A stretch of DNA of 10,362 nucleotides from the NCBI GenBank assembly GCA_900319505.1, contig ONOV01000071.1:1-10362 (forward strand), written 5' to 3'. This document shows, piece by piece, positions 1-10,083 of this stretch (position 1 is the stretch's first letter; each line of letters opens with the position of its first letter). Source of the stretch: an uncultured Erysipelotrichaceae bacterium. Its GTDB lineage: Bacteria; Bacillota_I; Bacilli_A; Erysipelotrichales; Erysipelotrichaceae. Made by a program: the position numbers and the translations under genes. The notes below the pieces were generated by a model. The model was not told where the DNA came from. It made no database searches and was given only the letters and a program-made list of their open reading frames with translations.

Positions 1-747
1 CAGGCAGCCATAGAAGCAGCGGATCTTGTTGAAAATAAAAATACGGTAATCATTGATACTTCTACAGCTCATCGTACTTCCGCCGGCTGGGTGTATGGCC
101 TTGCGGAGCTGAAAGGGCAGAGAGAAAAGATCAGAGCGGCAAAAAGGATTGCCAATCCCGGCTGTCACGCCACCGGCTTCATTCTTCTTGCTTCACCGCT
201 GGTCAAAGCAGGCATCATTGATCCGGATACGATTCTCTCTTTGACTTCATTGACCGGCTATTCAGGCGGCGGCAAGAAGATGATCGCAAGATATGAGGCA
301 ATTGAAAAAGAAGCACATATCAATGCACCGCAGCTTTATGGCCTGGGACAGAAACATAAACATCTGCCGGAAATGGAAGTGATGAGCGGTCTGAAACATC
401 CGCCGATCTTTAATCCGGTAGTAGCGGATTATTACTGCGGAATGGAGAGCATTCTATCTCTTGACTGTACACAGATTCATGGATCGATGGAAGAGATCAG
501 GGAAACATATCGCAAAGCGTATCCTGGTGGCATGGTTCATTATGAAGAAAAGCTTGATGAAAACGGCTATCTTCCGGCAGATCTTTATGCCGGAAGGGAT
601 GATTGTGCCATTACGGTGATTGGAAATGAAGAAAGAATGGATGTCATTGCCCTGTTTGACAATCTTGGCAAAGGGGCAAGCGGGGCAGCTATTCAGAATA
701 TGAACATTGTTTCAGGAATAGAAGAAGAAATAGGACTGGTGAAATGA
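1..747 (+). CDS. argC: N-acetyl-gamma-glutamyl-phosphate reductase, uncommon (type 2) form, 5' partial
   Basis: This enzyme carries out the NADPH-dependent reduction of N-acetylglutamyl phosphate to N-acetylglutamate semialdehyde, the third step of arginine synthesis, in the cytoplasm. The frame is open from base 1, and 248 codons are visible before TGA at 745-747. Roughly the first 60 residues, with the nucleotide-binding glycine motif, lie before the window, so the GTG at 91 and later ATGs are not the true start. Visible signatures are DTSTAHR, WVYGL, the catalytic-cysteine motif ANPGCHATGF (Cys codon 163-165), GYSGGGKKMI, the histidine-containing KHKHLPEM, and DNLGKGASGAA near the end. The GYSGGGKKMI and WVYGL blocks match the shorter, uncommon ArgC family (argC_other type) rather than the more common E. 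coli/Bacillus form. Its stop overlaps the argJ start (ATGA), so the two are probably translationally coupled. Confidence 0.95.
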   Translation, partial: QAAIEAADLVENKNTVIIDTSTAHRTSAGWVYGLAELKGQREKIRAAKRIANPGCHATGFILLASPLVKAGIIDPDTILSLTSLTGYSGGGKKMIARYEAIEKEAHINAPQLYGLGQKHKHLPEMEVMSGLKHPPIFNPVVADYYCGMESILSLDCTQIHGSMEEIRETYRKAYPGGMVHYEEKLDENGYLPADLYAGRDDCAITVIGNEERMDVIALFDNLGKGASGAAIQNMNIVSGIEEEIGLVK

Positions 748-1970
748 TGTATAAGGAAACAGAAGGCGGCGTTACGGCAGCGAAAGGATTCAGGGCATCC
801 GGCATTCACTGCGGCATACGTCATAACAAGGAAAAGAAAGATATTGCTCTGATTTACTGTGAAAAGCCAGCTGTCTGTGCCGGCCTGTTTACTCTGAATA
901 AAGTCAAGGCAGCGCCGGTGAAACTGGACATGGAAACCGTGAAGAACGAAACGGTCAGAGCCATCTTTGCCAATTCCGGTATTGCCAATGCCTGTGCCCC
1001 AGGATGTGATGAAGCAGCGGCAGGGATGCAGAAGATGGCAGCGGATGCCCTTGGCATCAGGCCGGAAGAAGTGCTTGTCTCTTCCACCGGTGTGATCGGG
1101 ATACCGCTGGATCTTGTGCCGATGCAGAAAGGTCTGCCACAGCTGGTCAAAGAACTCACGGATGCGCCGTCCGGTTCTGATGATGCGGCCCATGCCATCA
1201 TGACTACCGATACCCGCAAGAAGGAATATGCCATCCAGTTTGAACTGGGAGGAAAGACAGTGACGATCGGTGCCATTTCCAAAGGCTCCGGCATGATTCA
1301 CCCACATATGGGCACCATGCTGTGCTATATCACTACCGACTGTGCCATCCGTAAAGCCATGCTGAAGAAAGCCCTGAAAGAGGTATGTGATGTGACCTTC
1401 AACCGGATTTCCGTTGATGGGGATACCAGTACCAATGATTCACTGATCATGCTGGCAGATGGTCTGGCTGGTAATCCGGCTATTGATACGGAAAATGAAG
1501 ACTTTGAAATCTTTGTCAAAGCATTGAAACACTTATGTACCGTGATGGCAAAGCGTATGGCAGCGGATGGGGAAGGTGCCAGGCATCTGATTGCCTGTAC
1601 GGTATCTCATGCGGCAGATGAAGCTGAAGCAGAACTTCTCAGCAAGTCAGTCATCTCTTCCACCTTGACTAAGGCAGCGATCTTCGGCTGTGATGCCAAC
1701 TGGGGCAGAGTACTCTGTGCCATGGGCTATTCCGGAGCTGATTTTGCTCCTTCCACGGTGGATATCCGCTTTGCCTCCAGGGCAGGTGAGATTCTGGTCT
1801 GTGAAAAGGGAAATGGACTCAGTTTTGATGAGGATCTTGCCGCAAAGATTCTGCATGAAGATGAAGTACAGATTCTGATTGACATGCATGAAGGAAACAG
1901 CAGCGTCACCTGCTGGGGATGCGATATTACCTATGACTATATCAGAATCAATGGAGATTACCGGACATGA
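744..1970 (+). CDS. argJ: Bifunctional glutamate N-acetyltransferase / ornithine acetyltransferase
   Basis: ArgJ transfers the acetyl group from N-acetylornithine to glutamate, releasing ornithine and regenerating N-acetylglutamate. Bifunctional members also use acetyl-CoA. The 408-residue length is normal for the family. It is an Ntn-hydrolase-like proenzyme that cleaves itself into alpha and beta chains. The site is visible as KGSGMIHPHMGTML (residues 180-193), with Thr191 (codon 1314-1316) as the expected new N-terminus and nucleophile. The usual residue before it is Ala, and here it is Gly190. The oxyanion-hole motif SSTGVIG is around Thr115-Gly116, and the C-terminus INGDYRT matches the family ending. 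The start is ATG 744 (or 747), preceded by AGGA at 732-735. The stop overlaps argB by ATGA. Whether it is mono- or bifunctional cannot be read from sequence, but no argA is visible nearby. Confidence 0.96.
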   Translation: MMYKETEGGVTAAKGFRASGIHCGIRHNKEKKDIALIYCEKPAVCAGLFTLNKVKAAPVKLDMETVKNETVRAIFANSGIANACAPGCDEAAAGMQKMAADALGIRPEEVLVSSTGVIGIPLDLVPMQKGLPQLVKELTDAPSGSDDAAHAIMTTDTRKKEYAIQFELGGKTVTIGAISKGSGMIHPHMGTMLCYITTDCAIRKAMLKKALKEVCDVTFNRISVDGDTSTNDSLIMLADGLAGNPAIDTENEDFEIFVKALKHLCTVMAKRMAADGEGARHLIACTVSHAADEAEAELLSKSVISSTLTKAAIFGCDANWGRVLCAMGYSGADFAPSTVDIRFASRAGEILVCEKGNGLSFDEDLAAKILHEDEVQILIDMHEGNSSVTCWGCDITYDYIRINGDYRT

Positions 1971-2827
1971 TGGATCTGTCAAACAGTGAAAGAGCTGAAG
2001 TGCTTGTCCAGGCCCTGCCTAATATCCAGCATTATTCCGGACACACGGTTGTCATCAAGTATGGCGGCAATGCCATGAAGTCAAAACAGCTGGAAAAGCA
2101 GGTTACCCAGGATGTTGTTCTGTTAGCAGCGGTTGGGGTACATGCAGTATTGGTACATGGCGGAGGACCTGCCATTTCCCAGATGATGAAGCTGACCGGC
2201 AAGGCGTCTACGTTCATTGACGGGCTGAGGGTAACGGATAAGGAAACCGTGGATCTGGTCCAGATGGTACTTGCCGGCAAGATCAATAAGTCTCTGGTCA
2301 ACCTTCTGCAGGCCTGCGGCGGCAGAGCCATCGGTCTGGCCGGTATGGATGACGGCATGATTGAAGCGGAAATCAAGGATCCCAAGTACGGTTATGTCGG
2401 AAAGATCACAGCGATTCATCCAGCCATCCTGAATGATCTGATCGGGGCCGGCTATATACCGGTCATCGCAACCGTAGGATGTGATCAGCAGGGCAATGCC
2501 TACAACATCAATGCGGATACGGCAGCGGGAGAAATCGCTTCTGTTCTGCATGCGGAAAGACTGATCATGATGAGTGATATTTCCGGCATCATGCGGGATA
2601 TTCATGATCCGTCCACTCTGATTCCGCATCTGACGATTAACGAGACACGTCAGCTGTATGAAGACGGCATTGTCGCCGGCGGGATGATTCCCAAAGTTGA
2701 GTGCTGCGTCAATGCGGTAGAGAAAGGGGTAAAGGCATCGGTCATTCTGGATGGAACAAGGCCGCATGCCTTACTGATGGAGCTTCTGACTGATGAAGGC
2801 GCCGGTACAATGATTGAAAAGGAGTGA
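1967..2827 (+). CDS. argB: N-acetylglutamate kinase, arginine-sensitive type
   Basis: ArgB phosphorylates N-acetylglutamate with ATP, the second step of the pathway, and belongs to the amino acid kinase family. The 286-residue protein has the phosphate-binding VIKYGGNAM (Lys31, Gly33-Gly34), the substrate loop VHGGGPAIS (from His64), GLAGMDDGMI, the NADTAAGEIA block and GGMIPKVE. An N-terminal extension of about 25 residues before the kinase core (SERAEVLVQALPNIQHYSG) matches the N-helix of hexameric arginine-inhibited kinases. The C-terminal HALLMELLTDEGAGTMI matches the arginine-site signature of that group. Feedback inhibition by arginine is therefore inferred, which fits the cyclic pathway made possible by ArgJ. 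GGAG at 1953-1956 favours ATG 1967 over ATG 1970. The start overlaps the argJ stop by four bases. A gap of six bases separates the gene from argD. Confidence 0.96.
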   Translation: MMDLSNSERAEVLVQALPNIQHYSGHTVVIKYGGNAMKSKQLEKQVTQDVVLLAAVGVHAVLVHGGGPAISQMMKLTGKASTFIDGLRVTDKETVDLVQMVLAGKINKSLVNLLQACGGRAIGLAGMDDGMIEAEIKDPKYGYVGKITAIHPAILNDLIGAGYIPVIATVGCDQQGNAYNINADTAAGEIASVLHAERLIMMSDISGIMRDIHDPSTLIPHLTINETRQLYEDGIVAGGMIPKVECCVNAVEKGVKASVILDGTRPHALLMELLTDEGAGTMIEKE

Positions 2828-2833
2828 GTTTCT

Positions 2834-4018
2834 ATGGAGACAGAAAAACTGGATCAGAACTATATTGCCCATACCTATGACCGCTATCCGGCTGTATTAG
2901 TGAAGGGACACGGGGTAAAGGCGGCTGATGATAAAGGCAGAGTCTATACGGATCTGACTTCAGGCATCGGCGTCAATATCTTCGGCTATTGCGATGACAT
3001 ATGGAAAAAAGCCGTTGAAGCCCAGCTTGACTGCCTCCAGCATACTTCCAACCTGTACTATACGGAACCATGTGCGCATCTGGCCCAATTGCTTTGTGAA
3101 AAGACAGGCATGAAGAAAGTATTCTTCGGCAATTCCGGAGCTGAAGCCAATGAAGGCGCCATCAAGGCCGCCCGTAAGTATGCGGCCGGGAAGCACGGTG
3201 CGGATACATATACCATCATTACTCTGAAGGATTCCTTCCATGGCCGCACCATCACAACTCTTGCGGCAACCGGTCAGGACATGTTCCATCATGACTTTCT
3301 GCCGCTGACTCCGGGTTTTGTCCATGCAGAAAGAAATAATCTTGCCGATATGGAAAAGCTTGTCAGGGAAAACAAGACAGCAGCGATCATGATCGAATGC
3401 ATTCAGGGTGAAGGCGGTGTGCATGTTCTGGATCAAAAGTACGTACAGGGCATTCAGAAGATCTGTGATGAGAATGACATTCTTCTGATTGTGGATGAGG
3501 TACAGACCGGCAACGGCCGTACCGGCAGCTATTTCTCCTACATGAACTACGGCATCCATCCGGACCTTGTCACCACAGCCAAGGGACTTGGCGGCGGTCT
3601 GCCGATCGGGGCGGTACTGTTCAATGAAAAGACCCAGGATGTTTTCAGGCCTGGCGACCACGGTTCTACGTTCGGCGGCAATCCGATTGCGGCCGCCGGC
3701 GGTGTATCGATTGCTGAAAGAATTGATGATACACTGTTACAGGACGTCAGAGCCAAGGGTGAAAAAGTACAGGCATTCTTCAAAGCGGATCCGGATGTGA
3801 AAGCAGTCGAAGGCATGGGGCTGATGATCGGGATTGAACCGAAATATGCCAAAGCAGAAGATGTTCTGATGACCTGCATGAAACATGGGGTACTGGTACT
3901 GACCGCACATGACAATCGGATCAGACTGCTGCCGGCCCTCAATATTCCGGAAGATACGCTGATGGCAGCCTGTGAAGTGATTCAAGAAGCTCTGGCTGAA
4001 GAAAGGAAAATAAAATGA
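2834..4018 (+). CDS. argD: Acetylornithine aminotransferase
   Basis: ArgD is a pyridoxal-phosphate enzyme of the class III aminotransferase family. It converts N-acetylglutamate semialdehyde plus glutamate to N-acetylornithine plus 2-oxoglutarate. The 394-residue length is typical. Visible signatures are FFGNSGAEANEGAIK (phosphate-binding Ser101-Gly102-Ala103), SFHGRT, IVDEVQTGNGRTG (Asp221, which contacts the pyridine nitrogen) and TTAKGLGGGLPIGAV, with the PLP lysine at Lys250 (codon 3581-3583). GSTFGGNP follows, the usual dimer-contact motif. The start is ATG 2834, preceded by a strong AAGGAG at 2819-2824 that lies inside the end of argB. Its stop overlaps the argF start by ATGA. Related aminotransferases such as ornithine or succinylornithine transaminases share these motifs, but the operon position makes acetylornithine the likely substrate. 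Confidence 0.95.
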   Translation: METEKLDQNYIAHTYDRYPAVLVKGHGVKAADDKGRVYTDLTSGIGVNIFGYCDDIWKKAVEAQLDCLQHTSNLYYTEPCAHLAQLLCEKTGMKKVFFGNSGAEANEGAIKAARKYAAGKHGADTYTIITLKDSFHGRTITTLAATGQDMFHHDFLPLTPGFVHAERNNLADMEKLVRENKTAAIMIECIQGEGGVHVLDQKYVQGIQKICDENDILLIVDEVQTGNGRTGSYFSYMNYGIHPDLVTTAKGLGGGLPIGAVLFNEKTQDVFRPGDHGSTFGGNPIAAAGGVSIAERIDDTLLQDVRAKGEKVQAFFKADPDVKAVEGMGLMIGIEPKYAKAEDVLMTCMKHGVLVLTAHDNRIRLLPALNIPEDTLMAACEVIQEALAEERKIK

Positions 4019-4998
4019 ACCTGAAAGGAAGAGATTTTCTGAAACTGCTGGATTATGAACCGGAAGAAATCACATATCTTCTGGATCTGGCAGCAGATCT
4101 CAAGGCAAAGAAGAAGGCCGGTATTCCCCATGAGCTTGAAAAAGGGAAGAACATTGCCATGATCTTTGAAAAGACTTCAACAAGAACAAGATGCTCATTT
4201 GAAGTCTCGGCACATGATCTGGGCATGGGGGCTGTCTATCTTGGCCCGACCGGCACGCAGATCGGCGTCAAAGAATCCATTGCGGATACAGCCAGAGTTC
4301 TGTCACGGATGTTTGATGCCATCGAATACAGAGGCTATGGCCAAGCCATCGTGGAAGAGCTGGCAAAGTATGCCGATGTGCCTGTGATCAACGGTCTGAC
4401 CAATGAGTTTCATCCTACCCAGATGCTGGCGGATCTGCTTACCATACGTGAGCACTGCGGGCATCTGAAGGGCATTCACCTGGTGTATCTGGGTGACTGC
4501 CGCTACAACACGGCCAACAGTCTGATGTGTGCCTGCGCCAAGATGGGCATGCATTTTACAGCCAGCGGTCCGGATGGCTATATGCCTTCGTCTGAACTGA
4601 TTCAGGTATGCCGGGACATTGCTGAAAAGACCGGGGCAGTAATTGACTTTGTCAGGGATCCGTATGAAGCAGTTCAGGGAGCCGATATCGTCTATACGGA
4701 TATCTGGGTTTCCATGGGCGAACCGGAGAAAGTATGGGCGGAAAGACTGCCGCTGATGAAACCTTATCAGGTCAATCGTGAACTGATGGAGAAAGCGGGC
4801 AGACAGGCGCTGTTCATGCATTGTCTGCCAAGCTACCACGATACCCATACGGATGTCGGAAAGATGGTCTGTGAGAAGTATGGCATGGATGCGCTGGAAG
4901 TCAGTGATGAAGTATTTGAAAGCGATGCGTCCATTGTGTTTGATGAAGCAGAGAACCGCATGCATACCATTAAAGCGGTCATGGCGGCACTGTTATGA
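4015..4998 (+). CDS. argF: Ornithine carbamoyltransferase (anabolic)
   Basis: ArgF joins carbamoyl phosphate and ornithine to give citrulline. All family signatures are present in the 327-residue protein: the carbamoyl-phosphate loop STRTR at residues 55-59, HPTQ at 133-136, the ornithine-binding DIWVSMGE (Asp229, Ser233-Met234-Gly235) and the catalytic HCLP at 269-272. SMG marks it as an ornithine rather than an aspartate carbamoyltransferase. A catabolic role in the arginine deiminase pathway is possible for this family, but the company of argCJBD and carAB argues for biosynthesis. AAAGG at 4002-4006 precedes ATG 4015, which overlaps the argD stop. The stop at 4996-4998 overlaps the carA start by ATGA, putting the carbamoyl phosphate consumer directly next to its producer. 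Confidence 0.96.
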   Translation: MNLKGRDFLKLLDYEPEEITYLLDLAADLKAKKKAGIPHELEKGKNIAMIFEKTSTRTRCSFEVSAHDLGMGAVYLGPTGTQIGVKESIADTARVLSRMFDAIEYRGYGQAIVEELAKYADVPVINGLTNEFHPTQMLADLLTIREHCGHLKGIHLVYLGDCRYNTANSLMCACAKMGMHFTASGPDGYMPSSELIQVCRDIAEKTGAVIDFVRDPYEAVQGADIVYTDIWVSMGEPEKVWAERLPLMKPYQVNRELMEKAGRQALFMHCLPSYHDTHTDVGKMVCEKYGMDALEVSDEVFESDASIVFDEAENRMHTIKAVMAALL

Positions 4999-6059
4999 AG
5001 AAGTATCTGGTACTGGCGGATGGTTCCGTCTATGAAGGAGAAGGCTTTGGCAGTGAAAAGGAAACGGTGGGTGAACTTGTCTTTACAACCGGCATGTGCG
5101 GTTATATTGAAACCCTGACCGATGCAAGCTATGCCGGCCAGATCGTCATTCAGACTTTCCCGCTCATCGGCAACTACGGCATCATTCCGGAGGACTTTGA
5201 AGGGGAAAGTCTGCTCAAAGGATATGTAGTAAGAGAGTATTGTGAAACCCCAAGCAACTTCCGCTGTGAAGAAACCCTCAATGCCTATCTGAAGGAAAAG
5301 GATATTCCTGCTATTGCCGGGGTAGACACAAGAGCTCTGACCCGGCGCATCAGAAACCACGGCGTCATCAATGCCGGTCTGTTCAATACCGTGCCGGAAG
5401 ACCTTTCCATTCTGAAAAACTATGCAGTTACAGGTGTTGTCAATGCGGCAACGTGCCGTCACATCGAAACCTTTCCTGCCGAAGGTGAGGAAAAACGTCA
5501 TGTGACGCTGATTGACTGCGGTCTGAAAAAGAATATTGTCCGTGAACTGTGCCGGCATGGCTGCACGGTCAAAGTTGTTCCTTCCACAAGTTCAGCTGAA
5601 GAGATCCTGAAAGAACCGGTGGACGGTATCATGATTTCCAATGGCCCGGGTGATCCGGGTGAAAATACGGCTTTGATTCAGACGCTGCGTCAGATCGTCG
5701 GAAAGAAGCCGGTTTTCGGCATTTGTCTGGGCCATCAGCTCATGGCTCTTGCCATGGGCGGGACAACCTACAAGATGAAGTTCGGCCACAGAGGCGTCAA
5801 CCAGCCGGTCAAGGATCTTGAAACAGGCAGAACCTATATCACATCCCAGAATCATGGCTATGCGGTTGATGCAGATTCGCTCAGAGGCATCGGCACAGAA
5901 GCCTTTGTCAATGCCAATGACGGTACATGCGAAGGCATGCGCTATCCCGGCTATGACTGTCTGACGGTGCAGTTTCATCCGGAAGCCTGCTCTGGTCCGA
6001 AGGACTGCGGCTTTCTGTTTGATACATTCATGAAGATGATGGAGGAAAAGCATGCCTAA
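4995..6059 (+). CDS. carA: Carbamoyl-phosphate synthase small subunit (glutaminase)
   Basis: CarA hydrolyses glutamine and channels ammonia to CarB for carbamoyl phosphate synthesis. The 354 residues fit the usual two-part form. An N-terminal small-subunit domain (about residues 1-150, with ADGSVYEGEGFG and TTGMCGYIETLTD) is followed by a class I glutamine amidotransferase domain. The latter has NGPGDPG, the nucleophile in GICLGHQ (Cys244, codon 5724-5726) and VQFHPEA, carrying His328 and Glu330, so the catalytic triad is intact. The start at 4995 overlaps the argF stop (ATGA). No convincing Shine-Dalgarno sequence is seen upstream, so reinitiation by ribosomes finishing argF is likely. The gene overlaps carB by eight bases. 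Its place in the arg operon suggests a role mainly in arginine synthesis, though it could also feed pyrimidines. Confidence 0.96.
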   Translation: MKKYLVLADGSVYEGEGFGSEKETVGELVFTTGMCGYIETLTDASYAGQIVIQTFPLIGNYGIIPEDFEGESLLKGYVVREYCETPSNFRCEETLNAYLKEKDIPAIAGVDTRALTRRIRNHGVINAGLFNTVPEDLSILKNYAVTGVVNAATCRHIETFPAEGEEKRHVTLIDCGLKKNIVRELCRHGCTVKVVPSTSSAEEILKEPVDGIMISNGPGDPGENTALIQTLRQIVGKKPVFGICLGHQLMALAMGGTTYKMKFGHRGVNQPVKDLETGRTYITSQNHGYAVDADSLRGIGTEAFVNANDGTCEGMRYPGYDCLTVQFHPEACSGPKDCGFLFDTFMKMMEEKHA

Positions 6060-9000
6060 GGATCAATCTATTCGTAAAGTTCTGGTCATCGGCAGCGGTC
6101 CGATTGTCATCGGCCAGGCAGCTGAATTCGACTATGCGGGCACCCAGGCCTGTACCGTCCTCAAGCAGGAAGGCATTGAAGTCGTTCTTGCCAATTCCAA
6201 TCCGGCTACCATCATGACGGATAACCATATGGCAGATGAAATCTACCTGGAACCCCTGAATGAAACAACCATCAAACGTATCATTGAAAAAGAACATCCC
6301 GATTCCATGCTGGCATCGCTTGGCGGCCAGACCGCTCTGACGCTGGCCTTACAGCTGAGCAAAGACAACTGGCTGCAGAAACACGGCGTACGTTTATTAG
6401 GCTCGGATATTGAAGCCATTGATAAAGCCGAAGACAGACAGCGCTTCCGCGATACCATGGAAGCCATCGGCCAGCCGGTCGTACCAAGCGCTACCGCCAG
6501 TACCCTGGAAGAAGCACTAGAGATTGCCGAAAAGATCGGCTATCCGGTTATTGTCAGACCTGCCTTTACACTCGGCGGATCAGGCGGCGGCATTGCGGCA
6601 GATGAAGAAGAACTGAGAATCATTGCCCGTACCGGTCTTGATCTTTCTCCGATCACCCAGGTACTGATTGAGCGTTCCATTGCCGGCTGGAAGGAAATCG
6701 AATTTGAAACAATGCGTGATGCCATCGGCAATGTCATTGCCATCTGTTCCATGGAAAACATCGATCCGGTCGGCGTGCATACTGGCGACAGTATTGTTGT
6801 TTCCCCATGTCTCACCCTGGCTGATAAGGAATTCCAGATGCTCAGAAAAGCATCACTGGATATCATCAGCGCCCTCAATATTGTCGGGGGCTGTAATGTT
6901 CAGCTTGCCCTGAATCCGGAGTCCTTTGAATATGCGGTTATTGAAGTCAATCCCCGTGTATCAAGATCCAGTGCCCTGGCTTCCAAAGCCACCGGCTATC
7001 CGATTGCCAAGATCACAACCAAGATTGCCCTTGGCTACAGCCTGGATGAAATTACCAATGAAGTAACCGGGGAGACGGTATCCTGCTTTGAACCGTCCCT
7101 TGACTATGTTGTAGTCAAGATGCCGAAGTGGCCGTTTGACAAGTTTGCCGGCTCTTCCCGTAAGCTTGGCACCCAGATGAAGGCAACCGGTGAAGTCATG
7201 GCAATTTCCAACTGCTTTGAAGCAGCTTTACTGAAAGCAGTCAGAGGTGCCGAGATCAAACTGGATACCCTGAATGCCAGGCCGCTGGATAATCGGCTTG
7301 TAGAAGAAAGACTGCTGGATCAGGATGACCACCGGCTCTTTACGGTATTTGAAGCGCTCAAGAAGGGTGTTTCCATCGAAAAGATTCATGAACTGACAAA
7401 GATTGATGAGTGGTTCCTGGCCAAGTTCAAGGGCCTGGCTGAGTATGAAAAGAGAATTGCGGATGGTTTGAGTGATGAAGACTATTACCTCGGCAAGAAG
7501 CTTGGCTATACGGATGAAGCATTGAGCAGGCTGTCCGGCCGCAGTGATCTGCCTTCATTCCACTATGTCTATAAGATGGTTGATACATGTGCCGGTGAGT
7601 TTGAAGCAGCTACCCCGTACTTCTACAGCACGGCAGACAAAGAGTGTGAAGCAAGAGGATTGAAGCGGTCCGGCAAGCCGGTGGTCATGGTACTGGGCTC
7701 CGGTCCGATCCGCATCGGCCAGGGCATTGAGTTCGATTACTCCAGTGTGCACTGTGTCTGGACGTTAAGAGCACTTGGCTATGATGTCGTCATTGTCAAT
7801 AACAACCCGGAAACCGTATCGACCGACTATGACACGGCTGACCGCCTGTACTTTGAACCGTTATGCAGAGAAGATGTCATGAACATCATCCAGGTGGAAA
7901 AGCCGATGGGTGTTGTTGTGGCTTTCGGCGGTCAGACCGCCATCTCTCTGGCCGGCTACCTTGACAGTCAGGGAGTCAATATCCTTGGTACCAGTGCCGA
8001 TGCGATCGACCTGGCTGAAGACAGAGCCAGATTTGAAGCTCTCCTGCAGGCAAGAGGCGTCAAGCGTCCCAAGGGCATGAGTGTACTGACCATGGAGGAA
8101 GCGAAGCAGGCCGCAAAGGAAATCGGCTATCCGGTCCTTTTAAGACCTTCCTATGTCATCGGCGGTCAGAATATGACCATTGCCCACAGTGAAGAGGATA
8201 CCGTCGACTACATGTCCAGAATTCTGGCCCAGGGCATTGACAACCCGGTTCTGATTGATGCGTATCTGCCCGGCATTGAGCTGGAAGTGGATGTCATCTC
8301 GGATGGGGAAGATGTTCTGATCCCGGGCATCATGGAACATATCGAAAGAGCCGGTGTACATTCCGGCGACTCCATCGCTGTCTATCCGCCATACAATCTC
8401 AATGATGAACAGCTGGAAAGAGTGATTTCCGTTTCCATCCAGCTGGCCAAGGATATGGGCACAAAAGGGCTTGTCAACATTCAGTATCTGTTCTTCCAGG
8501 GCGAACTGTATGTCATTGAAGTCAACCCGAGAGCTTCCCGTACCGTTCCTTATATTTCCAAGGTGACAGGCGTACCGATGGTGGATCTGGCCTCCAAGAC
8601 GATGCTCGGCTATAAGCTGAAAGATCTTGGCTTCGGTACAGGACTCTATCGCCAGCCGCCTTATACCTGTGTCAAGGTACCGGTGTTTTCCTTTGAAAAG
8701 CTCATGGATGCCAACAGCATTCTCGGCCCGGAAATGAAGTCTACCGGTGAAGCCTTAGGCATCGGCAGAACGCTGCCGGAGGCACTGTTCAAGGGACTTG
8801 CCGGGGCCGGATTCAAGATGCTTGATACGCTGTCACGTGCCCATGGCGGCATCCTGATCAGTGTGGAAGAACATGACAATGCGGAAATTGTCGATGTGGC
8901 TGCCAAGTTCTCATCGCTTGGCATGAAGATCTATGCCACGGAAACAACCGCAGAAGCCATCCGCCGCATGGGTATTACCGTAACAACCGTATCCACGGAA

Positions 9001-10083
9001 AACAGCAGTAAAGAGATCTTTGATCTGATGGATCAGGGTGAACTGAACTACATCATCTATACCGGCGCCGTACGAGACGGCACCATCGGCGACTATACAG
9101 CCATCCATACCAAGGCCATGCAGCTGAGTATTCCATGCCTGACATCAGCCGATACCGCTGCTGCTCTTGCAGATATGGTGGCCGGCCGCTACAACAGTGA
9201 GAATACCGAACTCATCGACATCAACCACATGCGTCATAACCATGAAACCGTCCACTTCACCAAGATGCAGGACTGCGGAGATGACTATATTGTGATTGAG
9301 GACTTCATGAATAAGATCACCTCTCCTGAGTCCTTATGCGTCACACTCTGTGACCGTCATACCGGCATCGGTGCTGACGGCATTGTACTCATCCGTATCT
9401 CTCTGCGTGCCGATGCCCGGATGATCTCCTATAACCGTGACGGCACAAGAGCGGAAATCGGCGGCAACAATCTGCGCTTTATGGCCAAGTACCTGTATGA
9501 TCAGGGAATTGTCAGAAAGACAAACATGTCTATTGAAACTGATGCCGGCGTCAGAACCATGCATCTGTTCCTGCGCAATGGCAAGGTGCATTCCGTCACC
9601 GTCGATATGGGCAGGCCGGACTTTGCCTGTGAGAACATCCCGGTAAAGACAGAAGAAAAAGAGATGATTCAGAAGCCGCTCACCATTCACGAACACATCT
9701 ATACCGTTACCTGTGTCAAAGTAGGATCTCCCAACTGTGTCATTTTTGATGATCATATTGAAGAGATCAACCTGCCGGAAGTCGGTCCGTACTTTGAAAA
9801 TGCCGATCTCTTCCCGGAGCGCACTAATACGGAATTTGTCAGGGTTGTGGATGAAAGTACGCTTAAAGTCAGAGTGTATGAAAGAGGCAACGGCATCACC
9901 AACGGATGCGGCATTGATGCCTGTGCCGCTGCCGCCGCAGCGGTACGCATCGGCTATTGCCGTGAAGAGATGCCGATCAAAGTGGAACTGCCGGGCGGCA
10001 ATGTCACGGTTACCATTCACAATGGCAGAGTGATGCTGAACGGCGGCTGTGAAACCGTCTTTGAAGGTACATTTGCCTACTGA
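6052..10083 (+). CDS. carB: Carbamoyl-phosphate synthase large subunit fused to a DapF-like domain
   Basis: The first 1060 or so residues are a normal CarB, which makes carbamoyl phosphate from bicarbonate, two ATP and ammonia delivered by CarA. The carboxyphosphate half spans about 1-400 (IGSGPIVIGQAAEFDYAG, RPAFTLGGSGGG, metal-binding IEVNPRVSRSS with Glu298 and Asn300). A linking/oligomerisation segment runs to about 543. The carbamoyl-phosphate half is about 544-930 (LGSGPIRIGQGIEFDYSS, RPSYVIGGQNM, IEVNPRASRT with Glu823 and Asn825). An MGS-like allosteric domain covers about 934-1055. CarB normally ends near here at about 1060-1075 residues. In this protein the frame continues through a further DapF-fold domain (about 1067-1343), for 1343 residues in total. 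A strong GGAGG at 6041-6045 sets the start at ATG 6052, overlapping carA by eight bases. Codon use looks the same across the junction, which argues against a recent insertion. Confidence 0.95.
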   Translation: MPKDQSIRKVLVIGSGPIVIGQAAEFDYAGTQACTVLKQEGIEVVLANSNPATIMTDNHMADEIYLEPLNETTIKRIIEKEHPDSMLASLGGQTALTLALQLSKDNWLQKHGVRLLGSDIEAIDKAEDRQRFRDTMEAIGQPVVPSATASTLEEALEIAEKIGYPVIVRPAFTLGGSGGGIAADEEELRIIARTGLDLSPITQVLIERSIAGWKEIEFETMRDAIGNVIAICSMENIDPVGVHTGDSIVVSPCLTLADKEFQMLRKASLDIISALNIVGGCNVQLALNPESFEYAVIEVNPRVSRSSALASKATGYPIAKITTKIALGYSLDEITNEVTGETVSCFEPSLDYVVVKMPKWPFDKFAGSSRKLGTQMKATGEVMAISNCFEAALLKAVRGAEIKLDTLNARPLDNRLVEERLLDQDDHRLFTVFEALKKGVSIEKIHELTKIDEWFLAKFKGLAEYEKRIADGLSDEDYYLGKKLGYTDEALSRLSGRSDLPSFHYVYKMVDTCAGEFEAATPYFYSTADKECEARGLKRSGKPVVMVLGSGPIRIGQGIEFDYSSVHCVWTLRALGYDVVIVNNNPETVSTDYDTADRLYFEPLCREDVMNIIQVEKPMGVVVAFGGQTAISLAGYLDSQGVNILGTSADAIDLAEDRARFEALLQARGVKRPKGMSVLTMEEAKQAAKEIGYPVLLRPSYVIGGQNMTIAHSEEDTVDYMSRILAQGIDNPVLIDAYLPGIELEVDVISDGEDVLIPGIMEHIERAGVHSGDSIAVYPPYNLNDEQLERVISVSIQLAKDMGTKGLVNIQYLFFQGELYVIEVNPRASRTVPYISKVTGVPMVDLASKTMLGYKLKDLGFGTGLYRQPPYTCVKVPVFSFEKLMDANSILGPEMKSTGEALGIGRTLPEALFKGLAGAGFKMLDTLSRAHGGILISVEEHDNAEIVDVAAKFSSLGMKIYATETTAEAIRRMGITVTTVSTENSSKEIFDLMDQGELNYIIYTGAVRDGTIGDYTAIHTKAMQLSIPCLTSADTAAALADMVAGRYNSENTELIDINHMRHNHETVHFTKMQDCGDDYIVIEDFMNKITSPESLCVTLCDRHTGIGADGIVLIRISLRADARMISYNRDGTRAEIGGNNLRFMAKYLYDQGIVRKTNMSIETDAGVRTMHLFLRNGKVHSVTVDMGRPDFACENIPVKTEEKEMIQKPLTIHEHIYTVTCVKVGSPNCVIFDDHIEEINLPEVGPYFENADLFPERTNTEFVRVVDESTLKVRVYERGNGITNGCGIDACAAAAAAVRIGYCREEMPIKVELPGGNVTVTIHNGRVMLNGGCETVFEGTFAY
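9250..10083 (+). other. DapF-like (diaminopimelate epimerase fold) C-terminal domain of CarB, altered active site
   Basis: Residues about 1067-1343 align end to end with DapF, which interconverts LL- and meso-diaminopimelate with two cysteines. Landmarks in order are FTKMQDCGDDY (family: FxKMxGxGNDF), DRHTGIGADGIVLI, NRDGTRAEIGGNNLRF (family: NADGSxAxMCGNxxRC), VGSPNCVIF (family: GNPHxV), FPERTNTEF, and ERGNGITNGCGIDACA (family: ERGxGETxACGTGACA). By hand alignment to H. influenzae numbering, Cys73 is Gly1137 (GGC at 9460-9462), Asn11 is Asp1077 and Asn157 is Ser1226. Cys217 is kept as Cys1286, and Asn64, Asn190, Glu208 and Arg209 are kept as Asn1128, Asn1259, Glu1277 and Arg1278. Both halves of the pseudo-symmetric fold appear present and there is no stop or frameshift. 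Two-base epimerisation is unlikely with one cysteine gone. Its present function is unknown. Confidence 0.85.

Follow-up and report, generated by a model that had tools for sequence, protein, structure and literature searches.

The last gene of an arginine operon in an uncultured Erysipelotrichaceae bacterium encodes a carbamoyl-phosphate synthase (CPS) large subunit, CarB, that continues in the same frame into a diaminopimelate epimerase (DapF) fold devoid of one of its two catalytic cysteines. Judged from sequence, this added domain is probably a DAP-epimerase pseudoenzyme that an arginine-dedicated CPS large subunit has kept, either for a regulatory role with ligand binding or as a structural part. 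The window, meaning the whole stretch of 10,362 nucleotides analysed, is filled by a single plus-strand operon in its list of open reading frames (ORFs): a cut argC, argJ, argB, argD, argF, carA and, in last place, carB::dapF-like. The end of carA (4995-6059) overlaps the start of the fusion gene, so carB adjoins carA here. The features are as follows.

1..747, plus strand: argC, 5' end cut by the window; an ORF whose name comes from its sequence and its place in the operon, and which served as the argC query in relatives
744..1970, plus strand: argJ; an ORF in the order shared with the Clostridia locus L237, whose NCBIfam-identified ArgJ matches this protein
1967..2827, plus strand: argB; ORF, with gene order, NCBIfam identification and match from L237
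2834..4018, plus strand: argD; ORF, same L237 order, identification and match
4015..4998, plus strand: argF, ornithine carbamoyltransferase; ORF, same L237 order, identification and match
4995..6059, plus strand: carA, CPS small subunit; ORF, same L237 order, identification and match
6052..10083, plus strand: carB::dapF-like fusion of 1343 residues; ORF, Pfam and NCBIfam
8884..9144, plus strand: MGS allosteric domain of CarB, residues 945-1031; Pfam
9199..9234, plus strand: junction ENTELIDINHMR, residues 1050-1061, mostly the native C-terminal tail of CarB; tails of the unfused L232 and L276
9253..10074, plus strand: DapF-fold domain, residues 1068-1341; TIGR00652 and Foldseek matches of models to DapF structures
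9460..9462, plus strand: codon GGC, Gly1137 at the catalytic Cys73 position; Ala in 119 and Gly in 1 (the window) of a 120-protein alignment
9727..9729, plus strand: Ser1226 at the Asn157 position, a distal carboxyl contact; Asn in the other 119 proteins
9907..9909, plus strand: Cys1286, the second catalytic cysteine Cys217, kept; Cys in 120 of 120
9913..9915, plus strand: Ile1288 at the Ser/Thr219 position, a reactive carboxyl contact; Thr in the other 119 proteins

A preliminary description of this DNA had reported an in-frame CarB-DapF fusion of 1343 residues, and this stands: one ORF (6052..10083) traverses both parts without a stop or change of frame. The CarB profile TIGR01369 spans residues 2-1041 (1382 bits against a cut-off of 1027), the DapF profile TIGR00652 spans residues 1068-1341 (230 bits against 114.65, E 3e-68), and Pfam places MGS at 945-1031 together with DAP_epimerase. 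Database proteins repeat the arrangement. A search with the window's DapF part against targets of 738-2350 residues returned 698 proteins, 120 of them listed; both domain types (CPSase and DAP_epimerase) occur in all 120, the window's own included. The search proposed earlier, for CarB proteins of more than 1250 residues with a C-terminal DAP_epimerase domain, is answered by 111 of these 120. A sequencing, frameshift or assembly artefact is rejected because the fusion recurs in many assemblies (120 listed proteins, 22 of 70 genomes of the window's genus and 80 of 80 fetched loci).

The stated lack of a ribosome-binding site between the two parts extends to the relatives: a Shine-Dalgarno-like motif precedes the linker Met in 0 of 113 fused rows, these being the rows in which an internal linker Met could be located. 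Unlike that Met, the start of the window's carB is preceded by GGAGG. An internal start releasing free DapF is not favoured on this count. Several database proteins of 284 residues begin at the linker Met, most of them on contigs below 5 kb. Three such proteins, P0132, P0175 and P0201 (Mobilibacterium timonense), belong to clusters with contigs above 20 kb; P0201 comes from an isolate; its first residue is the fusion's linker Met, and its Cys73 motif is degenerate. A separate DapF product may exist in some species.

The supposed linker of about ten residues is traversed by the frame as described, but most of this stretch is CarB's own C-terminal tail. Unfused relatives stop there, with ENVSLVDINTL-stop in L232 and DNVTLVDINTL-stop in L276, and the junction is therefore the CarB tail (NTELVDINxM) running into DapF. 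An AlphaFold model of residues 540-1343 built from 77 sequences reaches pLDDT 86 and pTM 0.84 with an ordered linker; an earlier model of MGS plus DapF from 20 sequences had a weak linker, and the longer model is the better one. The ordered linker suggests a fixed docking of the modelled DapF domain on the CPS half. In Foldseek comparisons, the DapF part of the model matches 9mro at TM 0.92 and 3ejx at 0.86-0.89, some inhibitor-bound structures being the best; DapF entries from Haemophilus and E. coli score 0.81-0.84. This ranking says little on the bound state, because the DAP-bound Corynebacterium structure 5m47 reaches only TM 0.79.

The domain had been called complete, which holds for its full-length fold (residues 1068-1341) but not for its catalytic site. 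DapF requires two cysteines, and the window carries Gly1137 and Cys1286 at their positions. According to the available portion of PMC8225329, Gly74, Asn75, Gly218 and Ser219 of Haemophilus DapF contact the reactive carboxyl, Glu208 and Gln44 the distal amino group, and Asn64, Asn157, Asn190 and Arg209 the distal carboxyl. On our own residue mapping onto this numbering, Asn64, Gly74, Asn75, Asn190, Glu208, Arg209, Cys217 and Gly218 are kept in 120 of the 120 listed proteins, and Asn157 and Thr219 (Thr in place of Ser219) in 119, the window being the exception. The Gln44 position is Gly throughout, as in the aligned B. anthracis DapF. At position 73, the 120 proteins have Ala in 119 cases and Gly in one, the window.

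Compared with known DapF (TIGR00652; 2otn, 9mro, 1bwz), the window domain thus shares Cys217, Glu208-Arg209, the fold over its full length and the majority of substrate contacts (7 of 9 scored diaminopimelate contacts). It differs in its fusion to CarB, in the replacement of Cys73 by Gly here and by Ala in the clade, and in the changed contacts Asn157 and Ser/Thr219. A DapF relative recruited to another pathway is also seen in PddB, the 2,4-diaminobutyrate racemase, which keeps both cysteines and has changed the distal contacts Asn64, Asn157, Asn190 and Arg209, as far as the available text of PMC8225329 describes it; the Ala-type CarB::DapF is the reverse. Across the family as a whole, the most probable ligand would be diaminopimelate. 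The domain also carries a warning for annotation. Where names are given, the listed proteins are called carbamoyl-phosphate synthase and shorter pieces diaminopimelate epimerase; DapF profile scores lie far over the cut-off and some fragments bear the epimerase name, yet one catalytic cysteine is missing.

Mapping of taxonomy and operon context, also proposed in the preliminary description, shows through the named-genome scan and the protein searches that the fusion is common in gut Clostridia and not an isolated case. Within the window's GTDB family, the matches listed confine it to the window's genus, where 22 of 70 genomes have it, with no listed match in a frame above 340 residues among the other 202 genomes searched in that family. 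The scan of named genomes gave at least 562 relatives, and the best 80 were fetched. All of these best 80 are fused in one frame, a contig end cutting L143 47 residues before DapF. Their titles name Erysipelotrichaceae/Solobacterium, Oscillospiraceae or Ruminococcaceae, Christensenellaceae and unclassified Clostridia, with two labelled Chloroflexi; most are MAGs, many from herbivore guts. A draw of 291 Clostridia genomes across a class, whose centre G316 was chosen for having the fusion, contained 39 with a clear fusion, G344 (contig-cut) and G517 being left unclassified. A two-cysteine query found 6714 long proteins among 7991 scored, of which 120 were listed. One genome, G297 (L142, L143), holds two different Ala-type domains plus a separate DapF, through duplication or as a mixed MAG; one of the two domains lies on a contig that begins inside the fusion. 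In the open-licence literature, which leaves most subscription papers outside, no description of a CarB-DapF fusion was found; the available part of PMC2705460 describes other lysine-pathway fusions, in oomycetes.

The family divides according to the Cys73 position. The 39 class-draw fusions have Cys in 19, Ala in 12, Gly in 6 and Ser in 2, the 80 fetched loci have Ala in 76 and Gly in 4, and both cysteines are retained in each of the 120 proteins most closely related to a Cys-type member. Gene neighbourhood follows the same division. Where a locus extends 3 kb or more upstream, arginine genes precede 56 of 65 Ala-type fusions (50 of 57 in the first set, 6 of 8 in the class draw) as against 0 of 16 Cys-type loci (Fisher p 6e-11, descent ignored). 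Cysteine-less members not behind arginine genes comprise the other 9 of the 65 Ala-type loci plus Gly and Ser types. Neighbours of the Cys-type, labelled from 14 query genes only, are carA and, by case, purF, purC, purB, pyrG, thrC/folC or dapL. The two-cysteine Clostridia fusions (L195-L205, L208-L214, L216; P0241-P0360) share with the window the same fusion, order and tail-to-DapF junction, but differ in having both cysteines intact, nucleotide, folate/threonine or dapL genes nearby in place of arginine genes, and UMP/IMP-site residues mostly kept.

These neighbourhoods qualify the earlier assertion that DapF has no known link to carbamoyl phosphate synthesis, since they provide a genomic one: both carA-carB-dapF-dapL and carA-carB::dapF-dapL occur with intact DapF in related Clostridia. 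The unfused order is carA-carB-dapF-dapL behind purF in L229 and L231 and carA-carB-dapF-pyrG in L232, with DapF intact in each. L229, L230 and L231 represent a different unfused CarB lineage with separate dapF and dapL downstream (purF upstream in L229 and L231); the carB-dapF neighbourhood therefore arose or persisted in two CarB lineages. Two further loci, L278:5531-10474 and L279:2345-7278, have carA immediately followed by dapF, pyrG and dapL, with no carB between carA and dapF. In G448, L248:5150-9192 on the minus strand shows carB as two overlapping frames before a fused two-cysteine DapF, by frameshift or assembly error.

Thr1042 contacts ornithine, and His995 is presumably a UMP/IMP-site residue of the MGS domain. 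Lys993 has been implicated in UMP binding, according to the available portion of PMC6245113. The window has Thr982 and Asn984 at the K993 and H995 positions, which are not the residues of a UMP-regulated CPS of the E. coli type, and keeps Thr1031 as the Thr1042 equivalent, Thr being present in all rows of the 120-protein comparison and in all fused rows. Cys-type rows retain Lys993 in 19 of 19 and His995 in 18 of 19. The 86 Ala-type rows, some of them near-duplicates, have Lys993 in 4 and His995 in 1, with gaps in 13 and 14, respectively. A simple KxH motif was present in 95 of 120 further Cys-type proteins and not found in 25. The loss of most UMP/IMP residues with Thr1042 kept fits an arginine-dedicated CPS that would not respond to pyrimidines. 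Relative to E. coli CarB (1bxr, 1jdb), the window protein retains the two ATP-grasp halves, the MGS domain and the Thr1042 equivalent, but has changed the Lys993 and His995 equivalents and adds a DapF fold behind MGS. A second CarB, whole or partial and of 43-60% identity, is present in 21 of the 22 fused genomes of the genus, the exception being the window's own. That genome (G000) has, on contig C199 (L181:5427-7976, plus strand), a very divergent CarB-like frame of 27% identity, which scores 265 bits with TIGR01369 (cut-off 1027); an ordinary second CarB is absent.

The placement of an amino-acid-binding fold directly beside the regulatory domain of an arginine-feeding CarB is thus upheld by a full DapF fold behind MGS in an arginine operon. 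Of the two roles suggested for it, a new allosteric sensor or a linked activity, the data are consistent with regulation through amino-acid binding; a linked activity is unsupported in this protein, given Gly at Cys73, N157S and T219I. The sequences show that one family of Clostridia has carB and dapF side by side or joined, and that in a large clade mostly behind arginine genes Cys73 is replaced, with the other diaminopimelate contacts and Cys217 kept under purifying selection. In the scenario we propose, relatives with a seemingly intact fused DapF would represent a working double enzyme, the second half of which would later have been retired yet kept. From its residues, the retired domain should no longer epimerise LL-DAP, but in most members it may still bind diaminopimelate or some comparable two-headed amino acid; it would either tune the CPS via the neighbouring allosteric domain or serve as a structural part.

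A more specific form of this scenario is possible but tentative, namely that a bifunctional CPS/DAP-epimerase of gut Clostridia became a diaminopimelate-sensing arginine CPS, whose retired site reports the DAP pool, which serves cell wall and lysine, to arginine synthesis via the adjacent allosteric domain. If true, this would constitute a regulatory link between peptidoglycan and arginine metabolism that has no description in the open-licence literature searched, and carbamoyl phosphate supply would be tied to diaminopimelate metabolism. Living relatives include separate carB/dapF neighbours, fusions whose DapF is apparently active, and a fusion in a different operon that is conserved although dead. 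Such a set makes the passage from an enzyme to a non-catalytic, possibly regulatory domain directly testable.

Ddh bypasses DapF as a source of meso-DAP. In 16 of 19 Cys-type genomes, no DapF hit was obtained besides the fused copy. Four of the 19 lack Ddh (G325, G448, G354, G498), have no other DapF and carry dapL after the fusion, in G354 behind pyrG. The two-cysteine form probably works as an epimerase. Ddh was discarded as a discriminator between Cys-intact and Cys-lost genomes, since 15 of 19 Cys-type genomes have it as well. The cysteine-less Clostridia genomes number 69 (50 behind the 80 fetched loci and 20 from the class draw, one in both), and 19 of them have no separate DapF hit, against the 16 of 19 Cys-type genomes (Fisher p 1e-5). 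By source, a separate hit occurs in 40 of the 50 genomes behind fetched loci and in 11 of the 20 from the class draw. When shared descent on the CarB tree is taken into account, the association of Cys73 loss with a separate DapF rests on 5 independent pairs and is not significant (p 0.25). Cys73 was present in 10 of the 10 separate copies inspected. In the window's genus, Ddh and LysA occur in 21 of the 22 fused genomes, by which the fused domain is rejected as the active DapF of most of them; a separate DapF hit occurs in 13 (fragments in G033 and G044), with none over noise in 9.

An inert passenger is the strongest competitor, though we consider it unlikely. The domain would be carried along with carB, its epimerase redundant and its excision harmful to folding of the CarB tail, and it would bind nothing. 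Repeated loss of Cys73 agrees with this reading: the state changes 6 times on the CarB tree, 5 of them forced by supported branches, with the frame open in the rows used. So do the other meso-DAP routes (separate DapF or Ddh), which 61 of the 69 cysteine-less genomes of Clostridia possess, as do 21 of the 22 genomes of the genus with the fusion, and the further decay of the window's copy. However, within the clade the ligand contacts are as invariant as fold residues, though the enzyme is dead. The dN/dS of the DapF part is 0.02-0.29 in cysteine-less close pairs with a defined value (two pairs had saturated dS), far below 1; in most pairs this part evolves somewhat faster than the CarB part. 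These values indicate that the cysteine-less domain is under purifying selection at the sequence level. Moreover, the relative L275 has no DapF domain behind CarB, so loss of the domain is possible.

The trees leave the history of the fusion with several readings. A first DapF tree of 81 rows joined the window to one very long standalone branch; for the second, of 71 rows, ten rows were dropped, the three longest among them. In the DapF tree, the Ala-type forms a single clade that has support and in which G398 is basal; the CarB tree puts G398 elsewhere. The CarB tree also places the unfused L232 (carB and dapF apart) and L276 inside the fused clade, and the DapF tree has L232 near the base. 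These two loci may reflect re-separation or repeated fusion, or they may represent the ancestral state; the fusion may also have a single origin. Transfer of the fused gene into the window's Erysipelotrichaceae genus is likely, because the rest of the Ala-type is found in Clostridia.

A one-base enzyme with a new reaction is improbable. Cys217 alone would act on a diaminopimelate-like compound by exchange, elimination or another step, as its presence in 120 of 120 proteins despite the lost Cys73 might suggest, but position 73 (Ala or Gly) shows no obvious new catalytic residue and the gene context suggests no other substrate.

Least credible is a DAP epimerase that still works with another base as the sole DapF of the window's organism: cysteine substitution leaves below 0.1% activity in related enzymes (available text of PMC8225329), the window has also lost the Asn157 and Thr219 contacts, and Ddh and separate DapF hits are distributed through the fused genomes of its genus as given above. 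In its favour, contig C179 of the window's genome (L180) carries a dapA-dapB-tetrahydrodipicolinate N-acetyltransferase-aminotransferase (cut) cluster, indicating an LL-DAP route, and no other DapF, Ddh or LysA was found in that genome (92% complete, 239 contigs). The 19 cysteine-less genomes that lack a separate DapF divide into 11 with Ddh and 8 that lack this enzyme as well. Residual or other activity may persist in cysteine-less domains, because these 8 genomes and the window's own show no alternative.

Under the favoured reading of a retained pseudoenzyme, the window's copy stands apart. Ligand binding, if present in the family, is doubtful here, because of the changes N157S, T219I and N11D and the greater divergence of the DapF part; this copy probably is kept for structure, has a changed ligand, or is decaying. 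At otherwise conserved DapF positions, the window has 8 of 80 changed, the highest share among 111 long rows (median 0; next P0048 with 7 of 83), including N11D, N157S, T219I and, at position 73, Gly in place of Ala. In the CarB part, 7 of 493 conserved positions are changed. At equal CarB distance, DapF identity is 0.55 for the window (40 pairs) against 0.63, sd 0.05, for 2790 other pairs. In the DapF tree, the window groups with its genus and a single Clostridiales MAG, and this clade is supported.
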